Part shown: piece after piece, positions 3,136 to 60,009 of the stretch
How the letters are laid out: the number at the start of each line of letters is the position of its first letter
How positions within the stretch are numbered: the first letter of the stretch is position 1
DNA from: Anisus vortex
Taxonomy: Eukaryota > Mollusca > Gastropoda > Planorbidae
Assembly: GCA_949126835.1 (NCBI GenBank)
Contig: OX421495.1
Coordinates: forward strand, 17,881,079 to 17,945,078
Direction of reading: 5' to 3'
DNA length: 64,000 bases
Notes under the pieces: model-generated
Databases searched by the model: none
What the model was told of the DNA's origin: nothing
The model's input: only the letters and a program-made list of their open reading frames with translations
Made by a program: the position numbers and the translations under genes

Positions 3136-3141
3136 TACGCC
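3136..3141. repeat. Target-site duplication, left copy (TACGCC)
   Basis: TACGCC directly precedes the left terminus AGTAGTATAG and is repeated directly after the right terminus at 17583-17588. Confidence 0.85.
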
Positions 3142-3200
3142 AGTAGTATAGTGTGTAGTTTTCGGTTAGTATTTACGGAGCCGCTCCGTTGCGCCTCAGT

Positions 3201-3400
3201 TGACCTTTGACCTTTGTTCCGGAAGTGCCCTTGGACCCCGGAAGTAGCTGTACCGGAAGTGACCCCTACCGGAAGTGACGTCATCCAATATGGCGTCTCG
3301 TCGTGTTCTTACACGACCGGCCGTGACCTAGTGACCTTTTGACCTAGTGACCCCGCGCCTCAGTTGAACCAAGATGGCGTCTTGTCGTGTTGTTACACGA
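3201..3400 (+). promoter_or_regulatory. Inward-facing cluster of promoter-type motifs, left arm
   Basis: In about 200 bp there is TGACCTTTGACC (3201-3212, nuclear-receptor DR1 type), four CCGGAAGT ETS-type sites (from 3219, 3238, 3253 and 3269), a perfect CRE TGACGTCA (3276-3283) and two YY1-like AANATGGCG motifs (3287-3295, 3371-3379). Further TGACCTAGTGACC half-site pairs lie between. Two 6 bp hairpins, TCGTGT-N4-ACACGA, occur at 3301-3316 and 3385-3400. The YY1-like orientation would fit transcription toward the element centre. Motifs are seen; promoter function is inferred. Confidence 0.5.
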
Positions 3401-3559
3401 GCTTTGTTAGCACGTGATTATTTTTGTGTGGTATTATTTTTTACCATTGTCTTACAATGATTGACACATGTCCTATTTTTTTTCTCCCATTGTTTTATAA
3501 GGGTCTTTCTAAGGTTCAGCGGATCTAAAATTTTATAATTAATTAATAATATTAATTAA

Positions 3560-6145
3560 GTAATTAATCACTTGGATAGTGTTCTTTATAATTTTCAATA
3601 GTAAAAGGCTTTTTTCAATAAGTTTAATGTGTTTTTTAGCCCTAATTAGCACCTTTGAAGCGATAATTGATGTGTAAGGATCATTTTTACTTACTTGGAG
3701 GCAGTAATTTTCTTAATTTTATACTTAATTAATTAAATAATTGAAATTTTTATGGCCATTATTAGCGTGTAAAGGAACGTTTTTAAATACTAAGGGTCGT
3801 AATTATCACTAAATATCTCACGTTTTTATACTTTTTTACTTTTTACTTACTGGCATACATTAATTGTCTCTATTTTATACTTAATTAACATATTATAATT
3901 TTTATAGTTATAATTAACTTGTAAACAAGTGTTTTTAATGACTAAGGGCCGTAATTATCACTAAATAGACAACATTTTAATACGTTTTTGCCTTATTAAT
4001 TACATGGATACATTAATTGTCTCTATTTTATACTTAATTAACATATTATAATTTTTATAGTTATAATTAACTTGTAAACAGGTGTTTTTAATGACTAAGG
4101 GCCGTAATTATCACTAAATAGACAACATTTTAATACGTTTTTACCTTATTAATTACATGGATACAGTAATTTTCTTAATTTATTCTTAACTATTGAACTA
4201 ATTATAATTTTTATAGCCATAATTATCTCGTAAAGGGACGATTTTAATTCCTAAGGACCGTAATTATCACATTTTAAGCTACAAGTCTCATGTAAGGAAC
4301 GCACATTTACTTACTTCGATACGGTAATTATCTTAATTTTATTCTTAACTAATTAACTGATTATAATTTGTTTAGCCATAATTATCTCATAAAGGGACGA
4401 TTTTAATTACTAAGGGCCGTAATTATCACATTTTAAGCTACAATTCTCATGTAAGGAACGCACATTTACTTACTTCGATACGGTAATTATCTTAATTTTA
4501 TTCTTAACTAATTAACCGATTATAATTTGTATAGCCATAATTATCTCGTAAAGGGACGATTTTAATTACTAAGGGCCGTAATTATCACATTTTAAGCTAC
4601 AATTCTCATGTAAGGAACGCACATTTACTTACTTCGATACGGTAATTATCTTAATTTTATTTTTAACTAATTAACTGATTATAATTTGTATAGCCATAAT
4701 TATCTCGTAAAGGGACGATTTTAATTACTAAGGGCCGTAATTATCACATTTTAAGCTACAATTCTCATGTAAGGAACGCACATTTACTTACTTCGATACG
4801 GTAATTATCTTAATTGTATTCTTAACTAATTAACTAATTATAATTTGTATAGCCATAATTATCTCATAAAGGGACGATTTTAATTCCTAAGGGCCGTAAT
4901 TATCACATTTCAAGCAACAATTCTCATGTAAGGAACGCACATTTACTTACTTCGATACGGTAATTATCTTAATTTTATTCTTAACTAATTAACTAATTAT
5001 AATTTGTATAGCCATAATTATCTCGTAAAGGGACGATTTTAATTCCTAAGAGCCGTAATTATCACATTTTAAGCTACAATTCTCATGTAAGGAACGCACT
5101 TTTACTTACTTCGATACGGTAATTATCTTAATTGTATTCTTAACTAATTAACTAATTATAATTTGTATAGCCATAATTATCTCGTAAAGGGACGATTTTA
5201 ATTACTAAGGGCCGTAATTATCACATTTTAAGCTACAATTCTCATGTAAGGAACGCACATTTACTTACTTCGATACGGTAGTTATCTTAATTGTATTCTT
5301 AATTAATTAACTAATTATAATTTGCATAGCCATAATTATCTCGTAAAGGGACGATTTTAATTCCTAAGAGCCGTAATTATCACATTTTAAGCTACAATTC
5401 TCATGTAAGGAACGCACTTTTACTTACTTCGATACGGTAATTATCTTAATTGTATTCTTAACTAATTAACTAATTATAATTTGTATAGCCATAATTATCT
5501 CGTAAAGGGACGATTTTAATTACTAAGGGCCGTAATTATCACATTTTAAGCTACAATTCTCATGTAAGGAACGCACATTTACTTACTGTGATACGGTAAT
5601 TATCTTAATTTTATTCTTAACTAATTAACTAATTATAATTTTAATAACCATAATTAGCTTGTAAACGGGTCTGTTTTTAATTACAAAGGGCTTCAATTAT
5701 CCATAAATAGACCACATTCTATATACGTTTTACCTTTTTACTTATTGGGATAGAGTAATTATCTTAATTTTATTCTTAATTAAATAATTGAAATTTTTTT
5801 ATAGCCATAATTATCTTGTAAAGGGGCGTTTATTAATTACCAAGGGCCGTAATTAGCACTAAATAGACCAATTTTTTTTACTTTTTTAACTTTTTACTTA
5901 CTTGAATATAGTAATTGTCTTTATTGTATACTTAATTAACTAACTAATTATAACTTTAAGAACCATAATTATCGTGTAAAGAGGTGTTTTTTAATTACTA
6001 AGGCCACAAAATTAGCACTAAATAGGCCACCTTTTATATACCTTTTACATTTTTACTTACTTGTATATAGTAATTATCTCTATTTTATACTTAATTAAAT
6101 AACTAATTTGTATTTTTATAGCCATAATTATATTGTAAAGGTTTT
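3560..6145. repeat. 159 bp tandem array in the left arm
   Basis: Core copies follow each other at exactly 159 bp: the phrase CCATAATTA recurs with its second C at 4218, 4377, 4536, 4695, 4854, 5013, 5172, 5331, 5490 and 5649. Degenerate copies extend the array to both sides. Each unit contains GGGCCGTAATTATCAC and GTAAGGAACGCAC. A degenerate copy of the terminal module (AAGATGACGTC, TTACACATGA, CACGTGAT) follows at about 6156-6205, so related modules bracket the array. Confidence 0.93.
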
Positions 6146-6239
6146 TTTTAAATAAGATGACGTCTATTTTGTTCTTACACATGATTTTAACACGTGATTT
6201 TTTTAAATTTAAGAATGTTTAATATTACTATTTCGGTTT

Positions 6240-6937
6240 GATTAAGCCTTTTCCTTATTTATTGACAATAAACAAAAGTACGACATAAAGTATAACAGTA
6301 CAACACTACAACAGTACAACAAAACAACATATAGAAAAAAAAAATAGGTTTAAGTTATGATGTGATTTTATTCATAGTATTATATAGACATAGTACGTAC
6401 ATCAATTAAATAAGTTTATTTTTAATAATACTTTCATAGTATGTACATCAAACAAAAAGTTTATTTATAGCAATACATATATACATACAATAGCAACCAA
6501 AAAGCTTTATTTAGATCAATTCATATATACAGTATAATGTATTTATAGCAATCAAACAAGTTTATTTATAACAATGCGTATATACAGTATAGTGTATTTA
6601 TAGCAATTCATATATACAGTATAGTGTATTTATAGCAATCAAACAAGTTTATTTATATCAATTGATATATACAGTATAGTTTATTTACAACAGTAAACAG
6701 GAAGCGTTGACAAGATCTGAAATAAATAAATGCTTGTCTTATAAAAAATTTAATAATAGTACTATGTATATATTGTAAGCAGGTTAAAAATAAAGCCACC
6801 ACCTATCTATATAACGATACAAGCTAAATTAACATATTGTGATATAAAGACAAAAAATAACTTACCTTTTTTCTGTATATAACAGCGACCTAGACACAAA
6901 AACTGGAACAAGGGTAGATTTGCGATGCTAGAACAAG
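6240..6937 (-). ncRNA. Candidate outward, spliced noncoding transcription unit, left arm
   Basis: Read on the minus strand, a TATA box CTATATATAG (6962-6971) is followed about 30 bp later by an expected start near 6937. A consensus donor AAG|GTAAGT has its intron start at 6865, and an acceptor TTATTTCAG ends at 6717, giving a 149 bp intron. The downstream exon carries many AATAAA signals, the first at 6680-6685 and the last at 6258-6263, within AT-rich tandem repeats. I see no ATG frame of useful length, so any product would be noncoding. It is duplicated in the right arm. Signals are seen; transcription is inferred. Confidence 0.4.
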
Positions 6938-7134
6938 TGAAATTTAGCAATCTGCCTCGGACTATATATAGCGTATTTTGACCACACCTGTATTTATCAG
7001 TATCATCTTAAAAGCCAACACTGTCTAAACCCATTTAAACATTACGTCTGGTTACGTATATTAAGCATAGGCTGAGAGTTTCGGTGTACAGGTAATTGGA
7101 TTTGACTGGCCCTATGGTCAGTTTCCATTAGTTG

Positions 7135-7392
7135 CACTTGGCTAAGTGCATTTTACGCATTGCTGACCGAAACAGACCTGGTCAAAAATTTACTTATCTA
7201 CCAACCTGAATCTCGGCTACGGCATCTGGCTCGTCACGATGATGTAACAATTCAGAAATTTTTAGTTCGCCAGCTGTTGCACTAAGGCACTTAGTACAGA
7301 CCTAAAGGTCAACTTTTTGCACTAATGGGTTTTGGCTTATCAATCATCCATGTGGTCAGGTTTTTACATTTTTGCACTAAGGCACTTAGTAC
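7135..7392. promoter_or_regulatory. Hairpin-forming repeats upstream of the outward unit, left arm
   Basis: TGCACTAAGGCACTTAGTAC occurs at 7278-7297 and 7373-7392. Each contains the inverted repeat ACTAAG-N3-CTTAGT. A third dyad, GCACTT-N4-AAGTGC type, lies at 7135-7150. All are upstream of the minus-strand TATA box and resemble a set of binding sites for one dimeric factor. Confidence 0.45.
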
Positions 7393-7533
7393 AGTAAGGT
7401 AAATCCTTTTACTTATATACTTTATAATTACATAAGTCTACATTTGTATTTTGTACATTTTCTTTAAATTTTTATTGATAATACATGTAAATACAGTTTA
7501 CTTAACTCGTTTAAATTTAAATTAAATTAAAAT

Positions 7534-7690
7534 TGAATTGTTTATTTATATAGCGCTTCTATCTATGCTATTTTAGCATGCTCAGTGCGATCTGTAAACA
7601 CTTTTAAACATAAATGTTGCATATTTTAACTATTCTCTCGGCCAGATGGTCTTTAACTTGGTTGTGAGCGTTCACGCGAATGTACATTAT
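7534..7690 (-). repeat. LINE/SINE 3'-tail-like sequence in the left arm
   Basis: Reading the minus strand, the region ends AGCGCTATATAAATAA, similar to the tails of CR1/L2-like LINEs and their SINEs (compare 47080-47100). The upstream portion, with GAGCATGCTA, is not recognised. The mirror copy is at 13030-13190. Confidence 0.4.
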
Positions 7691-9089
7691 TTTAGTGAAT
7701 GTGTATTTCGAGTATTCTTTTTTTAAATATTTCTCTTTTCAATTGAAATAATTTAAATTGTTTAATAGTTAAACGAAGTGTAATGGTTGACTTACTATAA
7801 CATCGTTATTTCCTTATTTACTTACCTATTTTAAATGTGTATCTTTTAAATGTATAACTGCTAATAAACATCGCTTTAACTATTAAAATTCAGTTTGATA
7901 TACGTAAATGGTTGTATCTTTTCATTTTTGTCGTGTAATTTTTTACTTACTAGGGTTGAACGTTTTAAAATTTAAGTATATTAAGTGTTTCAAGTGGTAT
8001 CCAATATGACGGGTCAGAAGGGGGCGGATCCAAGAGGGCCGATTCGAGTGTTCCACACACGGGTCAACTGGAAAACAAGATAGCGGCTAATCCAAGTAAT
8101 ATACAAGGGCAGTTACCGTGTAATAATTTTTTAAACAGTAAACATCAAGAGATTTCATTTTTTTACATTTTTTTTTGCGCGCAATTACATCAAACAAGGA
8201 ATAAAACAACAACATGACTGGTAGTTTTTTTTATATTATTTTCTTTTTTATTTTACATCTAACTAAAGGTATATTTACAATACGAACACAGTCATTTATA
8301 ATATAATAAATACGAGCATGGTTAATTTCTTACGTACATGAAACAAATAAAAAATCGACAATTAGTAATACGTACGTGTAGTCTGTATTTGTCTGTGTGT
8401 GCGTGTGTGTAGTATATAGGTCCTAGGGGTTCCTAAAGAAAATTATACTAGTAACGGTATTGTCTTAACATTGTCTGAGTACATCTGTCTCTTTATGTAA
8501 AAATAAGAGCGTTAATTTCTGTGTAGTTAGTGTATGTATGAAGTAAAGGCGTTATGTGTAACAAACTTTTTTTAAATAGTAAATCAGACATCCAGGCTAA
8601 ACTAAATTATCAAGTTTAATGTTTATGTCACAACTGGCGACTCTTACAAATGTTGCGACAAGGTTTTCTGTAAGAATCTTGCACAATCATCCGAGCGCTA
8701 TGTGTTTCATTTGTCCCTCGGTAGTGTACTTTGAGCATGATTCCGATTGTTTACTACAGCTTTTCAACTTTTTGGTATACTGAAGTCACGGACAGGATAC
8801 GACAAGTAGTAATCTATACCCAACATACTTGTTTTTAAAACAACTAGGCATATCATCTTACACGTTTATAGAACTCCTCTTGGTACATCACAGTGACGTT
8901 AATTTTTTATACAACTAAGACATGTCAAACAATCCCAAATTTTGTGTTTGTTTCCACAATTAGAAACATTTTCAGTTTGACAAATATTTTTAGAGACCCT
9001 TGCGTGTTTGACAGGCAATAATGTTAACTTTTACATCACGAATGACTAGTTTCTTTTTCTGCCTTGCGCAATCTTTGTATCGCTTACTA

Positions 9090-9092
9090 CTT

Positions 9093-9160
<68 letters not shown>
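9090..9160. repeat. (CT)n microsatellite, left arm
   Basis: An almost pure CT run with one interruption. The corresponding GA run is at about 11566-11627. Length differences here explain part of the small difference in arm length. Confidence 0.95.
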
Positions 9161-9163
<3 letters not shown>

Positions 9164-9309
9164 CAAACCTGTTAGGGTAACTTTTTAGAAATCGTTTACA
9201 CACGCGACAAACTTTTAAGTACATCTTCTCAAACTCTCGATAGCGCTCTCTGTCTCCAACTTTCTCTCACAAAACATCTCTCTTTCAACAGCGTTCCCTC
9301 TTTCTGTCT

Positions 9310-9780
9310 TTGACTGCTTTCCTTACTATGTCTACACTTATTTATCTCTCCGTCTCTTTCTCTAACAAAACGTTAGGTCACTCCAACCTAACCATTACGC
9401 GTGCTCTTTTTTCTGCATTGCTCATTATCTGTATCTCTTACTACATGCTTCTATCTTTCTCCCGCTCTCTAGAAAAACTTTATGGTCAGCAAAACCTAAC
9501 ACATAATTTGCTACACAGCTTTCATTATGTCTTTCGTTTTCTTTTTTTTCCGCGTGCCATCGTTTACATTCTTAGTCTCTGTGACTCTCTTTCCTTACTC
9601 TTGTCTCGAGAGCTTTCTCTCACGAAACGTTTAGTTACTCTAAGGAGCACTCTTTCAACAGCGTTCCCTCTTTCTGTCTTGTTCAATCTCTACCTTCTTA
9701 CTTACTTCTTCTCTCTTTTTAAAATTGTCTTTCATTTTATGTTTTATAACGTGCAAATCGTTAAGCATGGTCACTCCTAA
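9310..9780 (+). CDS. Hypothetical hydrophobic frame in the left arm, 156 codons
   Basis: This open frame is identical to the minus-strand frame at 10949-11419, as expected from the palindrome. The conceptual protein is rich in L, S, F and Y with several hydrophobic stretches, for example SALLIICISYYMLLSF near residues 35-50 and VLFNLYLLTYFFSLF near residues 125-140. No family was recognised. The DNA is pyrimidine-rich with internal imperfect repeats (ACAGCGTTCCCTCTTTCTGT occurs twice, near 9290 and 9659), which can create hydrophobic frames without selection. It may not be a gene. Confidence 0.2.
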   Translation: MTAFLTMSTLIYLSVSFSNKTLGHSNLTITRALFSALLIICISYYMLLSFSRSLEKLYGQQNLTHNLLHSFHYVFRFLFFPRAIVYILSLCDSLSLLLSRELSLTKRLVTLRSTLSTAFPLSVLFNLYLLTYFFSLFKIVFHFMFYNVQIVKHGHS

Positions 9781-9880
9781 TGCTAAAACGGTGTGTACAT
9801 TACACGTAAACAAGGTTTTACAAGTAAGAGATATATAGCAAAGGCCAAGGTCAACTGAGACTAGTGTGAATTTGGGAAAA

Positions 9881-10848
9881 GCCCCTCCTCGCTCTACCTA
9901 ACTATCACTGTCTAAAACTTACCAAATATTACCAAACTAGTTACGTAAACCTTTTAATTATCAAACCAACATTTACTAATAGTAGTGGGTAGAACCTTTG
10001 TAACGCATACCACTCACCAACTATACAACTCTTGTCATTCCATCACCACCCAAATATATCTTCCAACTTAAGACAATCTTGCTCGACTTAAATCCTTAGA
10101 ATATTTTTATAGATAGCCCTGTCCTAACACCAACTTTACAAAACACATATCTACAACCCCCAAGTGAATTTCCCCACTTAGGAAATCTTGCTTGACTGAT
10201 GTCATGGAAGATTTCTGATAGTCTATCTTTAAAGATATCCCCGTCCTACCACCGACTTTACAAAACACATATCTACAACCCCCAAGTGAATTTCCCCACT
10301 TAGGAAATCTTGCTTGACTGATGTCATGGAAGATTTCTGATAGTCTATCTTTATCGATATCGCCGTCCTACATCAGACTTTACAAAACATATATCTACAA
10401 CCCCAAGTGAATTTTCCCACTTAGGAAATCTTGCTTGACCCAAACCTTCTAATAGGCCTACTTTTATTGATAGCCCTGTCCAAAACACTAATCTTAAAAA
10501 AACCTTTATAGATATCCCTGTCCAAAACACAACCCAAAACATATATCTACAACACCCAATTATACCTTCCCACTTAGGCAATCTTGCTTGACTCAAACCC
10601 TTATAATACTTCTATAGTTAGTCCTGTCCAAAACACTAACTTTACAAAACACTACACCTTCAGTTTAAAGTATTACTTTTTCACTACCCTATCCAACTTA
10701 TAGTAGTAATTGCTAAAAATAATAAATACACATCCTAAAACTTATCACAATTCCTTTAAACTAATTCTAGTGATTTACAAAACTCTTTACAATATTGACT
10801 ATCAACCCCAAACTAGTACAAACAAATAAATTTTTTCTTCTACCCCAC
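9881..10848. repeat. Central spacer with 122 bp tandem repeats
   Basis: This is the only single-copy part of the element. The phrase CTACAACCCCCAAGTGAA recurs at 10151 and 10273 (one C fewer at 10395), a 122 bp period. A diverged copy begins near 10547 and a further degenerate one near 10050. No coding frame outside the repeats is convincing. Confidence 0.85.
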
Positions 10849-10948
10849 TTTTCCCAAATTCACACTAGTGTCAGTTGGCCTTGGCCTTTGCTATATATCT
10901 CTTACTTGTAAAACCTTGTTTACGTGTAATGTACACACCGTTTTAGCA

Positions 10949-11419
10949 TTAGGAGTGACCATGCTTAACGATTTGCACGTTATAAAACATAAAATGAAAG
11001 ACAATTTTAAAAAGAGAGAAGAAGTAAGTAAGAAGGTAGAGATTGAACAAGACAGAAAGAGGGAACGCTGTTGAAAGAGTGCTCCTTAGAGTAACTAAAC
11101 GTTTCGTGAGAGAAAGCTCTCGAGACAAGAGTAAGGAAAGAGAGTCACAGAGACTAAGAATGTAAACGATGGCACGCGGAAAAAAAAGAAAACGAAAGAC
11201 ATAATGAAAGCTGTGTAGCAAATTATGTGTTAGGTTTTGCTGACCATAAAGTTTTTCTAGAGAGCGGGAGAAAGATAGAAGCATGTAGTAAGAGATACAG
11301 ATAATGAGCAATGCAGAAAAAAGAGCACGCGTAATGGTTAGGTTGGAGTGACCTAACGTTTTGTTAGAGAAAGAGACGGAGAGATAAATAAGTGTAGACA
11401 TAGTAAGGAAAGCAGTCAA
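10949..11419 (-). CDS. Hypothetical hydrophobic frame in the right arm, 156 codons
   Basis: Mirror copy of the frame at 9310-9780 with the same predicted protein. The two frames converge on the spacer. The same caution applies: no recognised domain, low-complexity pyrimidine-rich coding strand, and identity explained by arm homogeneity. Confidence 0.2.
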   Translation of the reverse strand: MTAFLTMSTLIYLSVSFSNKTLGHSNLTITRALFSALLIICISYYMLLSFSRSLEKLYGQQNLTHNLLHSFHYVFRFLFFPRAIVYILSLCDSLSLLLSRELSLTKRLVTLRSTLSTAFPLSVLFNLYLLTYFFSLFKIVFHFMFYNVQIVKHGHS

Positions 11420-11565
11420 AGACAGAAAGAGGGAACGCTGTTGAAAGAGAGATGTTTTGTGAGAGAAAGTTGGAGACAGAGAGCGCTATCGAGAGTTTGA
11501 GAAGATGTACTTAAAAGTTTGTCGCGTGTGTAAACGATTTCTAAAAAGTTACCCTAACAGGTTTG

Positions 11566-11627
<62 letters not shown>
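11566..11627. repeat. (GA)n microsatellite, right arm
   Basis: Mirror of the CT run at 9090-9160, with the same kind of AAAG interruption. Confidence 0.95.
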
Positions 11628-11630
<3 letters not shown>

Positions 11631-13029
11631 AAGTAGTAAGCGATACAAAGATTGCGCAAGGCAGAAAAAGAAACTAGTCATTCGTGATGTAAAAGTTAAC
11701 ATTATTGCCTGTCAAACACGCAAGGGTCTCTAAAAATATTTGTCAAACTGAAAATGTTTCTAATTGTGGAAACAAACACAAAATTTGGGATTGTTTGACA
11801 TGTCTTAGTTGTATAAAAAATTAACGTCACTGTGATGTACCAAGAGGAGTTCTATAAACGTGTAAGATGATATGCCTAGTTGTTTTAAAAACAAGTATGT
11901 TGGGTATAGATTACTACTTGTCGTATCCTGTCCGTGACTTCAGTATACCAAAAAGTTGAAAAGCTGTAGTAAACAATCGGAATCATGCTCAAAGTACACT
12001 ACCGAGGGACAAATGAAACACATAGCGCTCGGATGATTGTGCAAGATTCTTACAGAAAACCTTGTCGCAACATTTGTAAGAGTCGCCAGTTGTGACATAA
12101 ACATTAAACTTGATAATTTAGTTTAGCCTGGATGTCTGATTTACTATTTAAAAAAAGTTTGTTACACATAACGCCTTTACTTCATACATACACTAACTAC
12201 ACAGAAATTAACGCTCTTATTTTTACATAAAGAGACAGATGTACTCAGACAATGTTAAGACAATACCGTTACTAGTATAATTTTCTTTAGGAACCCCTAG
12301 GACCTATATACTACACACACGCACACACAGACAAATACAGACTACACGTACGTATTACTAATTGTCGATTTTTTATTTGTTTCATGTACGTAAGAAATTA
12401 ACCATGCTCGTATTTATTATATTATAAATGACTGTGTTCGTATTGTAAATATACCTTTAGTTAGATGTAAAATAAAAAAGAAAATAATATAAAAAAAACT
12501 ACCAGTCATGTTGTTGTTTTATTCCTTGTTTGATGTAATTGCGCGCAAATAAAAATGTAAAAAAATGAAATCTCTTGATGTTTACTGTTTAAAAAATTAT
12601 TACACGGTAACTGCCCTTGTATATTACTTGGATTAGCCGCTATCTTGTTTTCCAGTTGACCCGTGTGTGGAACACTCGAATCGGCCCTCTTGGATCCGCC
12701 CCCTTCTGACCCGTCATATTGGATACCACTTGAAACACTTAATATACTTAAATTTTAAAACGTTCAACCCTAGTAAGTAAAAAATTACACGACAAAAATG
12801 AAAAGATACAACCATTTACGTATATCAAACTGAATTTTAATAGTTAAAGCGATGTTTATTAGCAGTTATACATTTAAAAGATACACATTTAAAATAGGTA
12901 AGTAAATAAGGAAATAACGATGTTATAGTAAGTCAACCATTACACTTCGTTTAACTATTAAACAATTTAAATTATTTCAATTGAAAAGAGAAATATTTAA
13001 AAAAAGAATACTCGAAATACACATTCACT

Positions 13030-13190
13030 AAAATAATGTACATTCGCGTGAACGCTCACAACCAAGTTAAAGACCATCTGGCCGAGAGAATAGTTAAAAT
13101 ATGCAACATTTATGTTTAAAAGTGTTTACAGATCGCACTGAGCATGCTAAAATAGCATAGATAGAAGCGCTATATAAATAAACAATTCAA
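13030..13190 (+). repeat. LINE/SINE 3'-tail-like sequence in the right arm
   Basis: Mirror of 7534-7690. It ends AAGCGCTATATAAATAAAC at about 13165-13183. Confidence 0.4.
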
Positions 13191-13330
13191 TTTTAATTTA
13201 ATTTAAATTTAAACGAGTTAAGTAAACTGTATTTACATGTATTATCAATAAAAATTTAAAGAAAATGTACAAAATACAAATGTAGACTTATGTAATTATA
13301 AAGTATATAAGTAAAAGGATTTACCTTACT

Positions 13331-13589
13331 GTACTAAGTGCCTTAGTGCAAAAATGTAAAAACCTGACCACATGGATGATTGATAAGCCAAAACCCATTA
13401 GTGCAAAAAGTTGACCTTTAGGTCTGTACTAAGTGCCTTAGTGCAACAGCTGGCGAACTAAAAATTTCTGAATTGTTACATCATCGTGACGAGCCAGATG
13501 CCGTAGCCGAGATTCAGGTTGGTAGATAAGTAAATTTTTGACCAGGTCTGTTTCGGTCAGCAATGCGTAAAATGCACTTAGCCAAGTGC
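13331..13589. promoter_or_regulatory. Hairpin-forming repeats upstream of the outward unit, right arm
   Basis: GTACTAAGTGCCTTAGTGCA occurs at 13331-13350 and 13426-13445, exactly 95 bp apart. A related dyad, GCACTT-AGCC-AAGTGC, is at 13574-13589 and a half-site ATTAGTGCAAAAA lies near 13398. These precede the TATA box at 13752 by 160-420 bp. Confidence 0.45.
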
Positions 13590-13751
13590 AACTAATGGAA
13601 ACTGACCATAGGGCCAGTCAAATCCAATTACCTGTACACCGAAACTCTCAGCCTATGCTTAATATACGTAACCAGACGTAATGTTTAAATGGGTTTAGAC
13701 AGTGTTGGCTTTTAAGATGATACTGATAAATACAGGTGTGGTCAAAATACG

Positions 13752-13761
13752 CTATATATAG
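13752..13761 (+). promoter_or_regulatory. TATA box of the outward unit, right arm
   Basis: CTATATATAG; a start about 30 bp downstream, near 13786, would place the splice donor about 70 nt into the transcript. Confidence 0.45.
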
Positions 13762-13785
13762 TCCGAGGCAGATTACTAAATTTCA

Positions 13786-14480
13786 CTTGTTCTAGCATCG
13801 TAAATCTACCCTTGTTCCAGTTTTTGTGTCTAGGTCGCTGTTATATACAGAAAAAAGGTAAGTTATTTTTTGTCTTTATATCACAATATGTTAATTTAGC
13901 TTGTATCGTTATATAGATAGGTGGTGGCTTTATTTTTAACCTGCTTACAATATATACATAGTACTATTATTAAATTTTTTATAAGACAAGCATTTATTTA
14001 TTTCAGATCTTGTCAACGCTTCCTGTTTACTGTTGTAAATAAACTATACTGTATATATCAATTGATATAAATAAACTTGTTTGATTGCTATAAATACACT
14101 ATACTGTATATATGAATTGCTATAAATACACTATACTGTATATACGCATTGTTATAAATAAACTTGTTTGATTGCTATAAATACATTATACTGTATATAT
14201 GAATTGATCTAAATAAAGCTTTTTGGTTGCTATTGTATGTATATATGTATTGCTATAAATAAACTTTTTGTTTGCTGTACATACTATGAAAGTATTATTA
14301 AAAATAAACTTATTTAATTGATGTACGTACTATGTCTATATAATACTATGAATAAAATCACATCATAACTTAAACCTATTTTTTTTTTCTATATGTTGTT
14401 TTGTTGTACTGTTGTAGTGTTGTACTGTTATACTTTATGTCGTACTTTTGTTTATTGTCAATAAATAAGGAAAAGGCTTA
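13786..14480 (+). ncRNA. Candidate outward, spliced noncoding transcription unit, right arm
   Basis: Exon 1 would run from about 13786 to 13857, ending CAGAAAAAAG. The intron is 13858-14006 (149 bp), with donor GTAAGT and acceptor TTATTTCAG. Exon 2 starts at 14007 and soon enters AT-rich repeats built on CTATACTGTATATA and GCTATAAATA. It contains several AATAAA signals, the first at 14038-14043 and the last near 14460. Neither exon contains a usable ATG frame. The unit points toward the right end of the element and is mirrored at 6240-6937. Signals are seen; transcription is inferred. Confidence 0.4.
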
Positions 14481-14579
14481 ATCAAACCGAAATAGTAATA
14501 TTAAACATTCTTAAATTTAAAAAAATCACGTGTTAAAATCATGTGTAAGAACAAAATAGACGTCATCTTATTTAAAAAA

Positions 14580-17165
14580 AAACCTTTACAATATAATTAT
14601 GGCTATAAAAATACAAATTAGTTATTTAATTAAGTATAAAATAGAGATAATTACTATATACAAGTAAGTAAAAATGTAAAAGGTATATAAAAGGTGGCCT
14701 ATTTAGTGCTAATTTTGTGGCCTTAGTAATTAAAAAACACCTCTTTACACGATAATTATGGTTCTTAAAGTTATAATTAGTTAGTTAATTAAGTATACAA
14801 TAAAGACAATTACTATATTCAAGTAAGTAAAAAGTTAAAAAAGTAAAAAAAATTGGTCTATTTAGTGCTAATTACGGCCCTTGGTAATTAATAAACGCCC
14901 CTTTACAAGATAATTATGGCTATAAAAAAATTTCAATTATTTAATTAAGAATAAAATTAAGATAATTACTCTATCCCAATAAGTAAAAAGGTAAAACGTA
15001 TATAGAATGTGGTCTATTTATGGATAATTGAAGCCCTTTGTAATTAAAAACAGACCCGTTTACAAGCTAATTATGGTTATTAAAATTATAATTAGTTAAT
15101 TAGTTAAGAATAAAATTAAGATAATTACCGTATCGAAGTAAGTAAATGTGCGTTCCTTACATGAGAATTGTAGCTTAAAATGTGATAATTACGGCCCTTA
15201 GTAATTAAAATCGTCCCTTTACGAGATAATTATGGCTATACAAATTATAATTAGTTAATTAGTTAAGAATACAATTAAGATAATTACCGTATCGAAGTAA
15301 GTAAAAGTGCGTTCCTTACATGAGAATTGTAGCTTAAAATGTGATAATTACGGCTCTTAGGAATTAAAATCGTCCCTTTACGAGATAATTATGGCTATGC
15401 AAATTATAATTAGTTAATTAATTAAGAATACAATTAAGATAACTACCGTATCGAAGTAAGTAAATGTGCGTTCCTTACATGAGAATTGTAGCTTAAAATG
15501 TGATAATTACGGCCCTTAGTAATTAAAATCGTCCCTTTACGAGATAATTATGGCTATACAAATTATAATTAGTTAATTAGTTAAGAATACAATTAAGATA
15601 ATTACCGTATCGAAGTAAGTAAAAGTGCGTTCCTTACATGAGAATTGTAGCTTAAAATGTGATAATTACGGCTCTTAGGAATTAAAATCGTCCCTTTACG
15701 AGATAATTATGGCTATACAAATTATAATTAGTTAATTAGTTAAGAATAAAATTAAGATAATTACCGTATCGAAGTAAGTAAATGTGCGTTCCTTACATGA
15801 GAATTGTTGCTTGAAATGTGATAATTACGGCCCTTAGGAATTAAAATCGTCCCTTTATGAGATAATTATGGCTATACAAATTATAATTAGTTAATTAGTT
15901 AAGAATACAATTAAGATAATTACCGTATCGAAGTAAGTAAATGTGCGTTCCTTACATGAGAATTGTAGCTTAAAATGTGATAATTACGGCCCTTAGTAAT
16001 TAAAATCGTCCCTTTACGAGATATTTATGGCTATACAAATTATAATCAGTTAATTAGTTAAAAATAAAATTAAGATAATTACCGTATCGAAGTAAGTAAA
16101 TGTGCGTTCCTTACATGAGAATTGTAGCTTAAAATGTGATAATTACGGCCCTTAGTAATTAAAATCGTCCCTTTACGAGATAATTATGGCTATACAAATT
16201 ATAATCGGTTAATTAGTTAAGAATAAAATTAAGATAATTACCGTATCGAAGTAAGTAAATGTGCGTTCCTTACATGAGAATTGTAGCTTAAAATGTGATA
16301 ATTACGGCCCTTAGTAATTAAAATCGTCCCTTTATGAGATAATTATGGCTAAACAAATTATAATCAGTTAATTAGTTAAGAATAAAATTAAGATAATTAC
16401 CGTATCGAAGTAAGTAAATGTGCGTTCCTTACATGAGACTTGTAGCTTAAAATGTGATAATTACGGCCCTTAGGAATTAAAATCGTCCCTTTACGAGATA
16501 ATTATGGCTATAAAAATTATAATTAGTTCAATAGTTAAGAATAAATTAAGAAAATTACTGTATCCATGTAATTAATAAGGTAAAAACGTATTAAAATGTT
16601 GTCTATTTAGTGATAATTACGGCCCTTAGTCATTAAAAACACCTGTTTACAAGTTAATTATAACTATAAAAATTATAATATGTTAATTAAGTATAAAATA
16701 GAGACAATTAATGTATCCATGTAATTAATAAGGCAAAAACGTATTAAAATGTTGTCTATTTAGTGATAATTACGGCCCTTAGTCATTAAAAACACCTGTT
16801 TACAAGTTAATTATAACTATAAAAATTATAATATGTTAATTAAGTATAAAATAGAGACAATTAATGTATGCCAGTAAGTAAAAAGTAAAAAAGTATAAAA
16901 ACGTGAGATATTTAGTGATAATTACGACCCTTAGTATTTAAAAACGTTCCTTTACACGCTAATAATGGCCATAAAAATTTCAATTATTTAATTAATTAAG
17001 TATAAAATTAAGAAAATTACTGCCTCCAAGTAAGTAAAAATGATCCTTACACATCAATTATCGCTTCAAAGGTGCTAATTAGGGCTAAAAAACACATTAA
17101 ACTTATTGAAAAAAGCCTTTTACTATTGAAAATTATAAAGAACACTATCCAAGTGATTAATTACT
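14580..17165. repeat. 159 bp tandem array in the right arm
   Basis: Mirror of the array at 3560-6145, with a regular core from about 15075 to 16507. One visible arm difference is ATATTTATGG near 16021, where the left-arm counterpart has the usual ATAATTATGG. Confidence 0.93.
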
Positions 17166-17323
17166 TAATTAATATTATTAATTAATTATAAAATTTTAGA
17201 TCCGCTGAACCTTAGAAAGACCCTTATAAAACAATGGGAGAAAAAAAATAGGACATGTGTCAATCATTGTAAGACAATGGTAAAAAATAATACCACACAA
17301 AAATAATCACGTGCTAACAAAGC

Positions 17324-17523
17324 TCGTGTAACAACACGACAAGACGCCATCTTGGTTCAACTGAGGCGCGGGGTCACTAGGTCAAAAGGTCACTAGGTCA
17401 CGGCCGGTCGTGTAAGAACACGACGAGACGCCATATTGGATGACGTCACTTCCGGTAGGGGTCACTTCCGGTACAGCTACTTCCGGGGTCCAAGGGCACT
17501 TCCGGAACAAAGGTCAAAGGTCA
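17324..17523 (-). promoter_or_regulatory. Inward-facing cluster of promoter-type motifs, right arm
   Basis: Mirror of 3201-3400: ETS, CRE and YY1-like motifs, DR1 and the two TCGTGT/ACACGA dyads, all read on the minus strand toward the element centre. Confidence 0.5.
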
Positions 17524-17582
17524 ACTGAGGCGCAACGGAGCGGCTCCGTAAATACTAACCGAAAACTACACACTATACTACT

Positions 17583-17588
17583 TACGCC
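17583..17588. repeat. Target-site duplication, right copy (TACGCC)
   Basis: Directly follows the right terminus CTATACTACT and matches 3136-3141. Confidence 0.85.
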
Positions 17589-22496: not shown

Positions 22497-23193
22497 TGTA
22501 TGTCCATGTCCATATCAAATGTCCATGTCCATATCAAATGTCCATGTCCATATCAATGTCCATGTCCATATCAAATGTCCATGTCCAGATCAATGTCCAT
22601 GTCCATATCAAATGTCCATGTCCATATCAAATGTCCATGTCCATATCAATGTCCATGTCCATATCAATGTCCATGTCCATATCAATGTCCATGTCCATAT
22701 CAAATGTCCATGTCCATATCAATGTCCATGTCCATATCAAATGTCCATGTCCATATCAAATGTCCATGTCCATATCAAATGTCCATGTCTATATCAATGT
22801 CCATGTCCATATCAAATGTCCATGTCCATATCAAATGTCCATGTCCATATCAAATGTCCATGTCCATATCAAATGTCCATGTCCATATCAATGTCCATGT
22901 CCATATCAATGTCCATGTCCATATCAATGTCCATGTCCATATCAAATGTCCATGTCCATATCAATGTCCATGTCCATATCAATGTCCATGTCCATATCAA
23001 TGTCCATGTCCATATCAAATGTCCATGTCCATATCAATGTCCATGTCCATATCAAATGTCCATGTCCATATCAAATGTCCATGTCCATATCAAATGTCCA
23101 TGCCCATATCAAATGTCCATGTCCATATCAATGTCCATGTCCATATCAAATGTCCATGTCCATATCAATGTCCATGTCCATATCAAATGTCCA
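22497..23193. repeat. 18/19 bp minisatellite, about 37 copies
   Basis: The unit TGTCCATGTCCATATCA is followed by one or two A bases, so unit length alternates irregularly between 18 and 19 bp. All three forward frames stay open (up to 279 codons), but the predicted proteins are just the repeat read in shifting frames. Confidence 0.97.
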
Positions 23194-23269
23194 TCTACTG
23201 ATACATAAATATAGACTCAACCCACGGATAAGCGTAGGAGGGCAATAATCTACTGTATAGAAGGCTCGC

Positions 23270-24139: not shown

Positions 24140-24925
24140 CAAAAGTCACCCATACAAGTAATTCACACATTTCGCTAGTTTTTCTTAACGTTAGGTTGTA
24201 ATTTACCAGTGTCTGACAAACTTAAATTATGTATTTAGCCTAGCTCACTCATATTAGAGTTTGACCAAATTCACCAGTTTCACCCAACTTGAGGCTGTAG
24301 TTCACCAGTTGAATTTACTGCCAGTATGTACGTGTATTCTTCTCCGGATATTAGGGTGTAGTTTAATAGTTTGAACAAATGTCAGAACCAAATTTTCGAA
24401 AAAACATCATTTTCAACCATGGAAGTATATAATGGAACTTACTTATGTTCAAAATTGTTTTATTATAATTTAAAACAAAAATTATGCTAGCAATTTCACT
24501 TTAACTGGTTCACAACTAAGCTCATATTATACTATTTTGTGAATAACATAACCTTTTTGAAAATATAGTCAGCAGCCAGTGGCATGAAAATCAGCGAGTT
24601 CTGGCATTTATTGCCTGAGCATGGCATTTGAGCGTAAGACATCAATTTAGAAGGTGAAACTGAACAAGATGGCAATGTAAGGATATCCTGGCATGTGGCT
24701 CTATGTAAAAAATCGATAAATGTCACCATTTCCTTTTTAGTCTATGGTAGACAACAAGACTAAATTACCTGGTGGTAATATCAATGATTTATTGTTTATG
24801 TCAGAATTAGAACAGTAGAGATGTAGCCGCATACTCAATTTCTAGACATTTTATTTGTGCGTATTATCGAGATTTTTTCAGTTTAATATTTTGGCATTGT
24901 TATTTTTGTTACGTATATGACCTTT
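24140..24925. other. AT-rich intergenic DNA, nothing recognised
   Basis: Several short phrases containing TTCACC recur loosely between 23940 and 24310 (CACCAG, TTCACCAGTT). No frame or family was recognised. Confidence 0.4.
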
Positions 24926-27900
24926 TCTATCAGCACTTATAGACATAGCTATGACCTACTCTATCATTACTTTTACATATGGCTGTGACCTACTCTATCA
25001 TTACTTTTAGTCATGGATATGACCTACTATATCATTACTTTTAGTCATGTCTATGACCTACTCTATCATTACTTTTAGTCATGGCTATGACCTACTCTAT
25101 CATTACTTTTAGTCATGTCTATGACCTACTCTATCATTACTTTTAGTCATGTCTATGACCTACTCTATCATTACTTTTAGTCATGGCTATGACCTACTCT
25201 ATCATTACTTTTAGTCATGTCTATGACCTACTCTATCATTACTTTTAGTCATGGCTATGACCTACTCTATCATTACTTTTAGTCATGGCTATGACCTACT
25301 CTATCATTACTTTTAGTCATGGTTATGACCTACTCTATCATTACTTTTAGTCATGTCTATGACCTACTCTATCATTACTTTTAGTCATGGCTATGACCTA
25401 CTCTATCATTACTTTTAGTCATGTCTATGACCTACTCTATCATTACTTTTAGTCATGTCTATGACCTACTCTATCATTACTTTTAGTCACGGCTTTGACC
25501 TATTCTATCATTACTTTTAGTCATGGCTATGACCTACTCTATCATTACTTTTAGTCATGGGTATGACCTACTCTATCATTACTTTTAGTCATGGCTATGA
25601 CCTACTCTATCATTACTTTTAGTCATGTCTATGACCTACTCTATCATTACTTTTAGTCATGGCTATGACCTACTCTATCATTACTTTTAGTCATGGCTAT
25701 GACCTACTCTATCATTACTTTTAGTCATGTCTATGACCTACTCTATCATTACTTTTAGTCATGTCTATGACCTATTCTATCATTACTTTTAGTCATGGCT
25801 ATGACCTACTCTATCATTACTTTTAGTCATGTCTATGACCTACTCTATCATTACTTTTAGTCATGGCTATGACCTACTCTATCATTACTTTTACTCATGG
25901 CTATGACCTACTCTATCATTACTTTCACTCATGGCTATGACATACTCTATCATTACTTTTACTCATGGCTATGACCTACTCCATAATTTCTTTTAGTCAT
26001 GGCTATGACCTACTCTATCATTACTTTTAGTCATGGCTATGACCTACGTCATAATTTCTTTTAGTCATGGCTATGACCTACTCTATCATTACTTTTAGTC
26101 ATGGCTATGACCTACTCCATAATTTCTTTTAGTCATGGCTATGACCTACTCTATCATTACTTTTAGTCATGGCTATGACCTACTCTATCATTACTTTTAG
26201 TCACGGCTATGACCTATTCTATCATTACTTTTAGTCATGGCTATGACCTACTCTATCATTACTTTTAGTCATGGCTATGACCTACTCTATCATTACTTTT
26301 AGTCATGTCTATGACCTACTATATCATTACTTTTAGTCATGGCTATGACCTATTCTATCATTACTTTTAGTCATGGCTATGACCTACTCTATCATTACTT
26401 TTAGTCATGGCTATGACCTACTATATCATTACTTTTAGTCATGGCTATGACCTACTCTATCATTACTTTTAGTCATGGCTATGACCTACTCTATCATTAC
26501 TTTTAGTCATGTCTATGACCTACTCTATCATTACTTTTAGTCATGGCTATGACCTACTCTATCATTACTTTTAGTCATGGCTATGACCTACTCTGTCATT
26601 ACTTTTAGTCATGGCTATGACCTACTCTATCATTACTTTTAGTCATGTCTATGACCTACTCTATCATTACTTTTAGTCATGGCTATGACCTACTCTATCA
26701 TTACTTTTAGTCATGTCTATGACCTACTCTATCATTACTTTTAGTAATGTCTATGACCTACTCTATCATTACTTTTAGTCACGGCTATGACCTATTCTAT
26801 CATTACTTTTAGTCATGGCTATGACCTACTCTATCATTACTTTTAGTCATGGGTATGACCTACTCTATCATTACTTTTAGTCATGGCTATGACCTACTCT
26901 ATCATTACTTTTAGTCATGTCTATGACCTACAATATCATTACTTTTAGTCATGGCTATGACCTATTCTATCATTACTTTTAGTCATGGCTATGACCTACT
27001 CTATCATTACTTTTAGTCATGGCTATGACCTACTATATCATTACTTTTAGTCATGTCTATGACCTACTCTATCATTACTTTTAGTCATGGCTATGACCTA
27101 CTCTATCATTACTTTTAGTCATGGCTATGACCTACTCTATCATTACTTTTAGTCATGTCTATGACCTACTCTATCATTACTTTTAGTCATGGCTATGACC
27201 TAATCTATCATTACTTTTAGTTTTGGCTATGACCTACTCTATCATTACTTTCACTCATGGCTATGACCTACTCTATCATTACTTTTAGTCATGGCTATGA
27301 CCTACTATATCATTACTTTTAGTCATGGCTATGACCTACTCTATCATTACTTTTAGTCACGGCTATGACCTATTCTATCATTACTTTTAGTCATGGGTAT
27401 GACCTACTCTATCATTACTTTTAGTCATGGCTATGACCTACTCTATCATTACTTTTAGTCATGTCTATGACCTACTATATCATTACTTTCAGTCATGGCT
27501 ATGACCTATTCTATCATTACTTTTAGTCATGGCTATGACCTACTCTATCATTACTTTTACTCATGGCTATGACCTACTCTATCATTACTTTTAGTCATGG
27601 CTATGACCTACTCTATCATTACTTTTACTCATGGCTATGACCTACTCTATCATTACTTTTAGTCATGGCTATGACCTACTCTATCATTACTTTTACTCAT
27701 GGCTATGACCTACTCTATCATTACTTTTAGTCATGGCTATGACCTACTCTATCATTACTTTTAGTCATGGCTATGAACTACTCTATCATTACTTTTACTC
27801 ATGGCTATGACCTACTCTATCATTACTTTCACTCATGGCTATGACATACTCTATCATTACTTTTACTCATGGCTATGACCTACTCTATCATTACTTTTAG
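24926..27900. repeat. 34 bp minisatellite, roughly 87 copies
   Basis: The unit is about AGTCATGGCTATGACC plus TACTCTATCATTACTTTT, at exactly 34 bp spacing. Variants (GTCATGTCTATG, GTCACGGC, CATGGGTATG, CTACTATATC) recur in a patterned way, with landmark variants 578 bp (17 units) apart at 26201, 26779 and 27357. There is no unique spacer between units, so it is not CRISPR-like. Confidence 0.97.
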
Positions 27901-57390: not shown

Positions 57391-58602
57391 TTATAGGATT
57401 AAAATATTTTACGTTAAACAGTTGTAAATAAAAATTTCCTGCATTAATTGTTTTGTCAATATAACGATTTTATCTTCTAGACATTAATAATTACAGAAAT
57501 TATATTAAATAAGTCTCTTATATTGCTAAATTAATACAAATAAACTTGTTTTATAATTAATTACATTTATATTTAATAAAAGAAAATCAGCATAAAAACT
57601 CGTTGAAATGTAATTAGTCTCTATCAATTAATGAACGGTCAAGTGTAGGTGACCTCTTTGTATGCTTAAAACAGCTTTCATGTACAATCAAATCTGTTCA
57701 CAGGTGTAAGTTGAACCAAACGCTGAAAGTAAAGAAGCGAATGCCAATCAGTTAAGGATAGCAGACGACTTTCTTAAGCAGCTTCCTTCCAGTTGTTTCC
57801 GCAAATGGGCACATTGGGATGCCCTTTTTTTAAATGCTTAAAATTGAACTTGCTCCATTTTAAAATGGCCAATATTCCTCCACTTATAAAAAAAGATCTA
57901 CATCTAAGAAGGTTGTAAATCAGTTAGGCTTGATGTGGTATAAAAAAATGAGTCCATCAATTTGAAAGCTTTGAGTGCTTAGATGTACTTCTGAAAAAGC
58001 CCAACTATCTATCTTAAATACTCTTTACTTATGAATGTACATGTAGTAAAAAGTTTTTAAATTGTTCTTAGGGCACGATACGTCCAGTTTTAATGCAAAT
58101 CCATTCTAGTAGTTCTTGTAAATACAAGTTCTAATCACTGAAATGTGTCAGAAACATCGGCTTCAACAGTCAGTTTTCTTCATTCAGAACCGCAAAATGT
58201 TGTTGTTGTTTTTATCATAAAAAACACCTCTTGGAAGTCTCTCCATGCCATTGAAAATTGCTCTGTGTGCCAAGTTTTACACGCGTGCCTTTGGAAGCCG
58301 ACCTCTGATTTAGAGAACATTGTGAGATTACCTTAAGAGAGCACAATTTCCTTTATAACTGGATGAGTCCACAATGAAGCTTTTAACTTAGTTTATTTGA
58401 GTAAAAACAAACTAACCCATAAAAACCAAGTTTTTTATTATACGCCCTTTCTTTGTAAACTAAGTTTAAACTGTTTACCATCATGTAATTAAATAATTTA
58501 TAAGAAATATCTTTTGTTTTAGTCTTCTTTGGTATGGTACTAAGTATTATTTTCCTATCATAATTTTTAAGGAACATTGTTTCTCAGTATTTAATGATCA
58601 CT
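57391..58602. other. AT-rich intergenic DNA, nothing recognised
   Basis: No family or gene seen; it ends at the LINE target site. Confidence 0.4.
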
Positions 58603-58614
58603 ACGGTAGTCTCT
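58603..58614. repeat. LINE target-site duplication, left copy
   Basis: ACGGTAGTCTCT, repeated exactly at 61944-61955. Confidence 0.9.
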
Positions 58615-59023
58615 GAACCCATCTATTCATTTGTTGGTCTAATCTATTGATGGCCTTCCCGTGTTCGTCCTTGACAGGTCTTTCTGGTTTGTTGAACTTG
58701 CCAGAAAGGCGTTTGGTAATATCATACAGCTGTCGCAAGTTTCCACTGTACGCTGCTTGTTCTGCTTCTTTCGCCAGTCCGTCTATATAATTCTTCCTAT
58801 CTCTCTTTATGCTTCTCTTTACTATTCTGTGAGCCTCTGCATACTCCTCTTGAGCCTTTGCTTTGGTTGCCCTTGTTTTACTGTTGCTTACTGCTGCCTT
58901 TTTCTTCCTCCTATCTTGGATCTTGACCAAAGTTTCTGCTGTTATCCACTCTTTATGCTGCTGTTTCGTTTTCCCTACTACCTCTTGGCATGTTGTTCTG
59001 AATGACTCTTTAATTTTTGCCAT
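58615..59023 (-). pseudogene. LINE linker region between endonuclease and RT
   Basis: The frame begins MAKIKESFRTTCQEVVG and is lysine-rich and helical (KAKAQEEYAEAHRIVKRSI), ending NRLDQQMNRWVQ at the break with the 3' half. It continues the endonuclease frame after a one-base deletion in the T-run at 59014-59018 (A-run on the coding strand). The start codon is probably not a real initiation site. Confidence 0.8.
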
Positions 59024-60009
59024 CTGTTGGGTACATTGTCTTCTTCTTCCTGAAGTTCTTGAAGCACTTGAAACCTATTTTTTAGTGTTAGCTTAAACTT
59101 CTCTCTGTACATGTGATCTTTTAGGAGGTTGACATTGTACTTTTCTCTTCTGTTTGGCATGTACAGTATAGGGTTTCTCTTCAGCTTTAATTTCAGTTTG
59201 GTCACCAGCAGATGGTGATCCGATGCTGCATCTGCACCCCTTTTTACTCTGACATCTTGCATGGACCGTCTGAATCGTTTATTAATGCAGATGTGATCTA
59301 TCTGGTTCTCTGTGCGATTGTCGGGCGATACCCATGTACACTTATGAATACGCTTATGGGGAAAGATGCTACCTCCTATCACCATGTTATTTAGGGCACA
59401 AAAGTCTGCAAATTTTTCCCCGTTTTCGTTCATTTCTCCCACTGCCTGGGTGCCCATGATGTGCTCATATCCTGTGTTATCTGTCCTAATCTTGGAATTG
59501 ACGTCACCCATGAGGATAGTGATGTCCTTGCGTGGGAAGGTCTCTAGGACTTTTTGCAATCTATAAAAGAACTGGTCCTTATCCTCTTCGCTACCATCAT
59601 TTGTGGGGCCGTAGCACTGTACCACGTTCAAAGCGATCCTCTTCTTCTTTGTGCGGAACGAGGCGGTAATCATCCTGGGTCCATGTGCCTCCCATCCAAT
59701 CAAGGTGCCTTGTGCCTGGGTAGACAGCATAAGTCCTACTCCCTGTGTATGAGGGGCCTCACTCTCTTCATGCCCAGAGTACAATAATAGCTCTCCCGTC
59801 GACAGCCTTGTTTGTCCTGCTTGGGTCCACCTTGTTTCACTAATGCCCAGTATTTCAATTTTGTTTCTTTTCATTTCAGCTGCTACTTGCAGGGCTCTGC
59901 CAGTTTCATACATGGTCCTGACATTCCATGTTCCAATAATAGTATTCCTGGTTAAAAGAAAGGTAGTCGGCTTCGTGGCTTCCTTTCGGCTTTTACCACT
60001 AAACGTCAT
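58978..60009 (-). pseudogene. LINE apurinic-like endonuclease domain
   Basis: A 343-codon frame with AP-endonuclease-like motifs of RTE-clade LINEs: GTWNVRTMYETGRA (about residues 26-39), ILGISETRW (about 53-61), VVQCYGPTNDG (about 133-143), ILMGDVNSKI (about 165-174) and the terminal ASDHHLLVTKLKL (about 270-282). This enzyme would nick target DNA to prime reverse transcription at the insertion site. The frame stops early through the one-base deletion near 59016, so the copy is broken. It is close to the RTE/BovB family that includes craniofacial development protein 2-like sequences. Confidence 0.9.

Follow-up and report, generated by a model that had tools for sequence, protein, structure and literature searches.

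A gene-poor palindromic element of Anisus vortex, very probably a non-autonomous derivative of Mavericks

Organisation of the palindromic element

The window analysed here is a stretch of 64,000 nucleotides from the snail Anisus vortex (GenBank assembly GCA_949126835.1, contig OX421495.1, positions 17,881,079 to 17,945,078, forward strand). At positions 3142-17582 it carries a palindromic element of 14,441 bp, whose structure, relatives in the same genome and probable descent from the Maverick/Polinton lineage are reported below. An earlier note on the window had described two inverted arms of about 6.7 kb, a spacer of 968 bp, matching termini and a perfect 6 bp flanking duplication, TACGCC. 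Arms of 6.74 kb with 99.7% identity were confirmed by self-alignment (6,741 aligned bp, 99.73%, 11 mismatches and two gaps), and chance could not plausibly produce so long an inverted repeat. The spacer is present, with a measured length of 966 bp (9882-10847) in place of 968 bp. The first ten bases of the element are AGTAGTATAG and the last ten are their complement, which gives exact termini AGTAGTATAG / CTATACTACT. TACGCC was found without mismatch at 3136-3141 and 17583-17588, immediately flanking the element on each side, and the direct repeat does not extend past these 6 bp. A folded read or an assembly palindrome would extend into the flanks; at this locus the two flanks are unlike and the duplication has direct orientation, which speaks against such an origin.

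The repeats make up 93% of the element. On each side, a G+C-rich outer domain, an array of 159 bp units (~15.7 units) and an inner domain follow one another; the left outer domain is rich in CCGGAAGT, TGACGTCA and ATGGCG words. The features, in window coordinates, are as follows; E10 and E16 are gene-bearing relatives introduced below.

3136..3141, left target duplication TACGCC (sequence read)
3142..9881, plus strand, left arm of the palindrome (self-alignment)
3142..3440, plus strand, outer terminal domain, left copy, 50% G+C
3684..6151, plus strand, array of 159 bp units in the left arm, ~15.7 copies (repeat analysis)
7267..7403, plus strand, non-coding block common with gene-bearing E10 and E16 (79-80%, inverted there)
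7837..8240, plus strand, non-coding blocks 7837-7976 and 8041-8240, collinear with the left part of E16 (88% and 81%)
9244..9780, plus strand, open frame of 178 aa within a pyrimidine-rich stretch; its codon pattern is not that of a gene
9882..10847, plus strand, spacer (middle domain) of 966 bp, containing a 122 bp repeat in 2.8 copies
10848..17582, minus strand, right arm, reverse complement of the left (self-alignment)
14572..17042, minus strand, array of 159 bp units in the right arm, ~15.7 copies (repeat analysis)
17284..17582, minus strand, outer terminal domain, right copy (arm alignment)
17583..17588, right target duplication TACGCC (sequence read)

To assess coding content, the left arm and spacer were represented by 61 open frames of 36 aa or longer, which were compared with Pfam and PHROGs, with two retrotransposon frames from the window as positive controls in the same scan. 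Both controls were recovered by Pfam, and the reverse transcriptase only by PHROGs. Among the 61 frames there was no convincing family match in either collection and no match to a Maverick core gene (polymerase, integrase, ATPase, protease, capsid); the description of the element as gene-poor, with no recognisable transposition gene, holds. Weak matches in Pfam (DUF3915, 0.0018; Atrophin-1 in three members, best 0.011; Med27, 0.092) and seven in PHROGs (0.024-0.083) were disregarded, and a DUF6451 match (0.00026) was assigned to the reverse-transcriptase control, whose relatives carry DUF6451. A protein search with an 82-aa arm frame gave no match, and neither an Rfam family at gathering score nor a tRNA was found in the window.

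Related copies and the similarity of their arms

The genome (863 Mb, 159 contigs; the window lies on contig C4) was searched with the 265 bp terminus. At least 54 terminus matches were obtained, 40 of 563 candidates being scored, and all copy counts given here are lower bounds. Matches were paired by eye into 16 inverted pairs, E1 to E16 (window copy included), and eight single ends, S38 to S45; further pairs were compared as two separately extracted halves each. The outer terminus begins with AGTAGT in all 38 further end loci read, and one end locus has in addition a partial terminus, on the inner side, with another beginning. An exact 6 bp direct duplication flanks 15 of the 16 pairs, E11 agreeing at five of six positions, and 14 different duplications occur among the 15 exact pairs, the one in common being that of E13 and E14. 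Because many copies lie within differing duplications, the family is mobile. The earlier note had looked for mobility in other copies with the same ends and different 6 bp duplications; beyond the window copy there are 15 further pairs, 14 with a perfect duplication (13 different ones), and the opposite outcome that it had named, no other copies, did not occur.

E13 and E14 (C47:181914-194864 and 684284-697234, by pair reading) are alike in ends, duplication and arm comparison. They lie 502 kb apart on contig C47 and were counted once; the twin copies are perhaps a segmental duplication or an assembly duplication.

Palindromes make up 13 of the 16 pairs (E1-E9, E12-E15), 12 of them independent. 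Apart from E8, which has a nested insertion, the copies read are ~9 to 17 kb long. Best arm-to-arm alignments, each covering 2.8 to 7.5 kb, gave the following identities (%):

E1 99.73; E2 99.63; E3 99.97; E4 99.51; E5 99.81; E6 98.85
E7 99.76; E9 99.00; E12 99.97; E13 (= E14) 95.24; E15 99.94

In E6, E9 and E13 the best alignment is offset by ~160-200 bp, roughly one repeat unit; in register, the outer parts are no more than 86-93% identical. The left arm of E8 carries a nested insertion; its inner end and most of the spacer are lost, 211 bp of spacer being kept, and the remainder of both arms is present. The insertion, of ~6.3 kb, holds a 915-aa SCAN-domain open frame (L058:1752-4496, plus strand). 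The left arm of E9 has an insertion of ~950 bp with a 288-aa frame (L060:3651-4514, minus strand), which has a sub-threshold reverse-transcriptase match.

The window spacer was found in 10 of the 11 other palindromic copies compared (E2-E6, E8, E9, E12, E13, E15), with 92.5-99.8% identity. It is absent from E7, which has lost its spacer, and from the gene-bearing E10 and E16. In those ten copies, similarity to the window arm stops at the arm/spacer border, at the same base. The same spacer and the same border wherever readable show common descent of the palindrome, which was most likely formed once and then spread as a unit.

Each single end was judged from one inner piece of 1.6 kb. Three of them (S42, S43, S45) match gene-bearing copies and three others (S38-S40) palindromic arms; S41 shows a mixture of the two, and S44 is a short element, ~5.6 kb long. 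E11 is a short form of 2.85 kb. The other palindromes contain 30 frames of at least 120 aa. Of these, 21 were scanned against Pfam; most of the remainder are mirror images or duplicates. None of the 21 matched a Maverick gene; the SCAN domain of E8 was the sole match above the cut-off, and the frames of E9 gave, besides the sub-threshold match in its insertion, weak zinc-finger-like matches. The 178-aa frame of the window copy was considered as a gene and rejected: its 150-aa part is open in only three of 12 copies read (E1, E3, E15), and seven synonymous against 24 non-synonymous changes, with ~30% synonymous expected, indicate no constraint. One public protein matches it (P0121, 150 aa, 98%, three differences in 150 residues, from a 1,375 bp contig) and probably comes from a further family member present in a public assembly.

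To compare sibling arms, two segments of single-copy DNA were aligned from both arms: A (6160-7655, 11 copies) and B (9330-9878, ten copies). E14 was left out as a duplicate of E13, and E8 entered with its right arm only, as one tree row. In the tree of segment A, the two arms are sisters in 10 of the 11 copies; the arms of E1 group with its near-twin E3, their branching order being open. In a nearest-neighbour comparison that includes E14, no other arm is closer than the sibling for 18 of 24 arms in segment A and for 12 of 22 in segment B. The misses fall on E1 and the E13/E14 duplicates and, in B, also on the arms of E4-E6, which are nearly identical there. There are 32 arm-to-arm differences (19 in A, 13 in B), of which 26 are private to one arm and none is common to two copies. 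By contrast, there are 84 columns in A and 22 in B at which copies differ from one another and the two arms of each copy are the same. A single 153 bp unit and a block of terminal changes, alike in both arms, separate the near-twins E1 and E3. Since sibling arms are sisters and no arm difference is shared, the arms have repeatedly been re-made identical as the copies spread, in a manner that may be likened to the two long terminal repeats (LTRs) of a retrovirus.

One copy bears a trace of such an event. Inward from its true right end (duplication GTCGGG), E12 (L029, C10:9630000-9631000) has a terminal remnant of ~300 bp, then 34 bp, then a full arm; the 34 bp are identical to sequence of the left host flank, a flank that is itself a tandem repeat, which calls for caution. 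On the simplest reading, the right arm broke, repair used the left arm as template and ran outwards beyond its end, and end joining followed. The other pairs have the duplication directly at both outer ends. Two further observations on the window arms were set aside. An imperfect snap-back primer relic had been considered for two of the 11 arm mismatches, which lie in the innermost 31 bp (P 0.001), and was dropped, both being private to the window copy; a 22 bp inverted similarity between the outer and inner arm ends (E 0.13) was too weak and was not used.

Gene-bearing relatives and the origin of the palindromes

Two pairs bear genes, E10 (16.7 kb) and E16 (13.4 kb), with short terminal repeats of ~470 bp and ~560 bp, respectively. 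E10 encodes an integrase (rve and chromodomain, 1.8e-15, well over the Pfam cut-off), an adenovirus-type protease (Peptidase_C5, 22.1 bits against a cut-off of 21.3) and a packaging ATPase of the A32/IVa2 type (24.0 and 22.5 bits against cut-offs of 22.8 and 21.0). KLLGNAAYGK and MDTDS, which we take to be motifs of family-B polymerases, were spotted by eye in its 1333-aa frame. In six frames common to E10 and E16, 26 synonymous and 25 non-synonymous differences were counted (pN/pS 0.27). E16 also contains a 216-aa frame of the Bcl-2 apoptosis-regulator family (PF00452, 4e-25; L074:3409-4056, minus strand), perhaps a captured host-type gene. Outside the snail, the 17-base terminus matched five viral contigs with no similarity beyond the terminus, and the 24-base terminus matched no contig in viral and prokaryote genome collections. 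Searches of viral contigs with arm frames and the polymerase frame gave no relative, and none was found in phages.

The outer domain of the palindromes and the terminal repeat of E10 and E16 are homologous, with the same CCGGAAGT, TGACGTCA and ATGGCG kinds of word, and the termini are common to the palindromes, E10, E16 and the gene-type single ends S42, S43 and S45. In a tree of 38 termini, in which many forks are open, the palindrome E15 groups with E10, E16, S42, S44 and S45; identity to E10 is 87% for E15 (~440 bp), 86% for E16 and 94-95% for S44 and S45. The inner arm of E15, unlike its terminus, belongs with E1 and E3. Sequence further inside the arms is also shared. Comparison of the inner arm with the left piece of E16 matched 1,497 of 3,729 bases, and ~350 bp of the same piece match the 159 bp units, over 2,458 of the 2,469 array bases; the left piece of E10 matched 532 bp of the inner arm and none of the array. 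The right, gene-rich pieces of E10 and E16 match the terminal domain only. At the same threshold, the window flanks (3.1 and 46.4 kb, 49.5 kb in total) gave no match to the pieces of E10 and E16. As the left pieces match and the flanks do not, the arms share much sequence with the gene-poor left part of Mavericks.

On this evidence, derivation of the palindromes from Mavericks has a very high probability. No core gene was found in the window element, which is thus a derivative rather than an autonomous Maverick; that it is a non-autonomous, palindromic, foldback-shaped derivative of the Maverick/Polinton lineage residing in the same genome is highly probable, and the palindromes are very likely mobilised in trans. 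The earlier note had considered a non-autonomous, foldback-like element, which is borne out, and an undescribed non-autonomous family; of the latter, the non-autonomous character stands, and the notion of an orphan foldback family falls, since the Maverick ends are common to gene-bearing copies. Features of Mavericks found here are the 6 bp duplication, (AGT)2//(ACT)2 ends, terminal inverted repeats and termini in common with gene-bearing copies; of those expected for a foldback element of Mutator type, long arms with tandem repeats and a non-coding middle were found and a duplication of 8-10 bp was not.

Three other accounts of the palindromes have little in their favour. Long palindromes are a known class of artefact, and the like copies E13 and E14 on one contig are perhaps an assembly duplication; folded reads are nevertheless hardly credible for independent loci on many contigs, with direct 6 bp duplications, differing flanks and private differences scattered over the arms of most copies. 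A classical foldback transposon, of Mutator or another cut-and-paste superfamily and with arms and tandem repeats independent of Mavericks, would have the same modular anatomy of outer, tandem-repeat and inner domains around a non-coding middle, as given in PMC4079207. The Tetris duplications given there measure 8-10 bp, against exactly 6 bp in 15 of 16 pairs here, and the termini are those of gene-bearing Mavericks; this account is largely refuted and highly improbable. If, locus by locus, an ordinary Maverick had inserted and then had one of its ends overwritten with the other, ends common to gene-bearing and palindromic copies would likewise be explained. Such insertions would not be expected to have the same spacer in 10 of 11 other palindromes, missing in E10 and E16, or an arm similarity that stops at the same base in ten copies. 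The palindrome was thus inherited and not re-formed per locus, and overwriting, refuted for the copies read, is very unlikely overall.

How the arms of these Maverick-derived palindromes are kept alike is a closer question. Equalisation could take place after insertion only, by gene conversion or break repair between the chromosomal arms and with no role for replication. The right arm of E12, apparently rebuilt from the left with 34 bp of left host flank, is of this kind, and conversion would likewise yield sister arms. Such overruns are rare among the pairs read, the duplication abutting both outer ends in the others, and 26 of 32 differences look like scattered, private changes in copies that are unlike one another at many columns, as expected from arms identical at insertion. 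A purely chromosomal process is a real possibility that we would put somewhat short of an even chance; that equalisation occurs mainly during replication is an evenly balanced proposition. Under the mechanism proposed here, the palindrome would have arisen once, by inverted duplication of a gene-poor Maverick end. It would be inserted by the Maverick integrase and copied by the Maverick polymerase from its AGTAGT ends. During protein-primed copying, the displaced single strand could fold into one long hairpin, and snap-back copying or mismatch repair of the folded strand would equalise the arms; break repair between arms in the chromosome, as seen in E12, may be an added contribution.

Several points weigh against this reading. 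The shared arm sequence could have moved from a palindrome into E16 instead, and E10 shares less of it than E16. The sister relation of the E5 arms has no more than moderate support (82/75), and six of the 32 arm differences have both states in other copies. The replication model is weakened by E12, which shows that arms can also become equal within the chromosome. The 1333-aa frame of E10 was matched by no polymerase profile, so that protein-primed replication of the lineage would be suggested by the pair of motifs, by the ends and by relatives in the literature; profiles likewise identified no capsid gene. One E10 frame is interrupted where it is open in E16, and E16 is without the long polymerase frame, which makes an intact helper copy putative.

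Tentatively, the palindromes may be taken a step further, as sub-viral satellites of an animal Maverick virus: gene-free palindromic genomes that keep only the ends for replication and insertion, copied and perhaps packaged by a gene-bearing Maverick, with identical arms re-created in every round by strand folding and with arm divergence dating insertions as in LTRs. If true, the multiplication of a gene-free palindromic derivative would establish satellites of Mavericks, a route from a self-synthesising element to foldback anatomy, and concerted evolution of the arms in elements of this type. The divergence between arms might then be used as a clock for Maverick activity, and the palindromes would be natural reporters of the Maverick replication mode.

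The remainder of the window contains repeats of other kinds. The pieces of a non-LTR retrotransposon at 58601-61929 are rearranged, since the minus strand carries the endonuclease frame and the plus strand that of the reverse transcriptase; the best named relative is a protein of the snail Babylonia areolata (74% over 91%), with schistosome proteins close behind, a pattern compatible with a molluscan host. Tandem arrays were found at 24916-27900 (34 bp units, ~88 copies, 94% matches), at 22500-23194 (ATGTCC-type 37 bp units, three plus-strand frames open) and at 2375-2985 (50 bp units), the last ending ~150 bp to the left of the insertion.

Comparison with known systems

Palindromic defective genomes arise in protein-primed replicons such as adenovirus, in which one end is inverted and duplicated and two replication origins are kept. 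The palindromes described here differ from these in being integrated, inherited, equalised and multiplied in a host genome.

According to PMC8097293, (AGT)2//(ACT)2 are the commonest ends of vertebrate Mavericks, intact copies have 6 bp target duplications and an average length of ~17 kb, and the repeated end motif permits jumping-back in protein-primed replication. The window element resembles Mavericks/Polintons in its (AGT)2//(ACT)2 ends, 6 bp duplication, terminal inverted repeats, similar length and terminal domain, and differs from them in that no core gene was found in it, in repeats over 93% of its length and in the 159 bp array. Long terminal repeats alone are not new, since a survey of Polinton-like viruses filters for repeats of 100 bp to 8 kb, according to PMC12220804. 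Among the titles and abstract beginnings of the literature on non-autonomous Mavericks and Polintons, no non-autonomous or palindromic Maverick was recognised, and the only wording of that kind met with was 'polinton-derived'. The Tlr elements of Tetrahymena, once suggested as a non-autonomous Polinton derivative (PMC4028283), are likewise Maverick-related; they encode capsid proteins, an integrase and an ATPase (PMC4028283), whereas none of these was found in the palindrome.

Tetris is described in PMC4079207 as a non-autonomous foldback element with tandem repeats within its arms, a non-coding middle and 8-10 bp duplications; work cited there holds that separate lineages may each have given rise to foldbacks, and Mutator seems to account for most of those known. 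A foldback ascribed to Mavericks was not seen in the literature titles and abstract beginnings, and curated repeat libraries may hold relatives. With the foldbacks Tetris, Galileo and FB, the palindromes have in common long inverted arms, internal tandem repeats, a non-coding middle and, as in Tetris, non-autonomy. They are set apart by Maverick-type ends and by duplications of 6 bp, in contrast to the 8-10 bp of Tetris.

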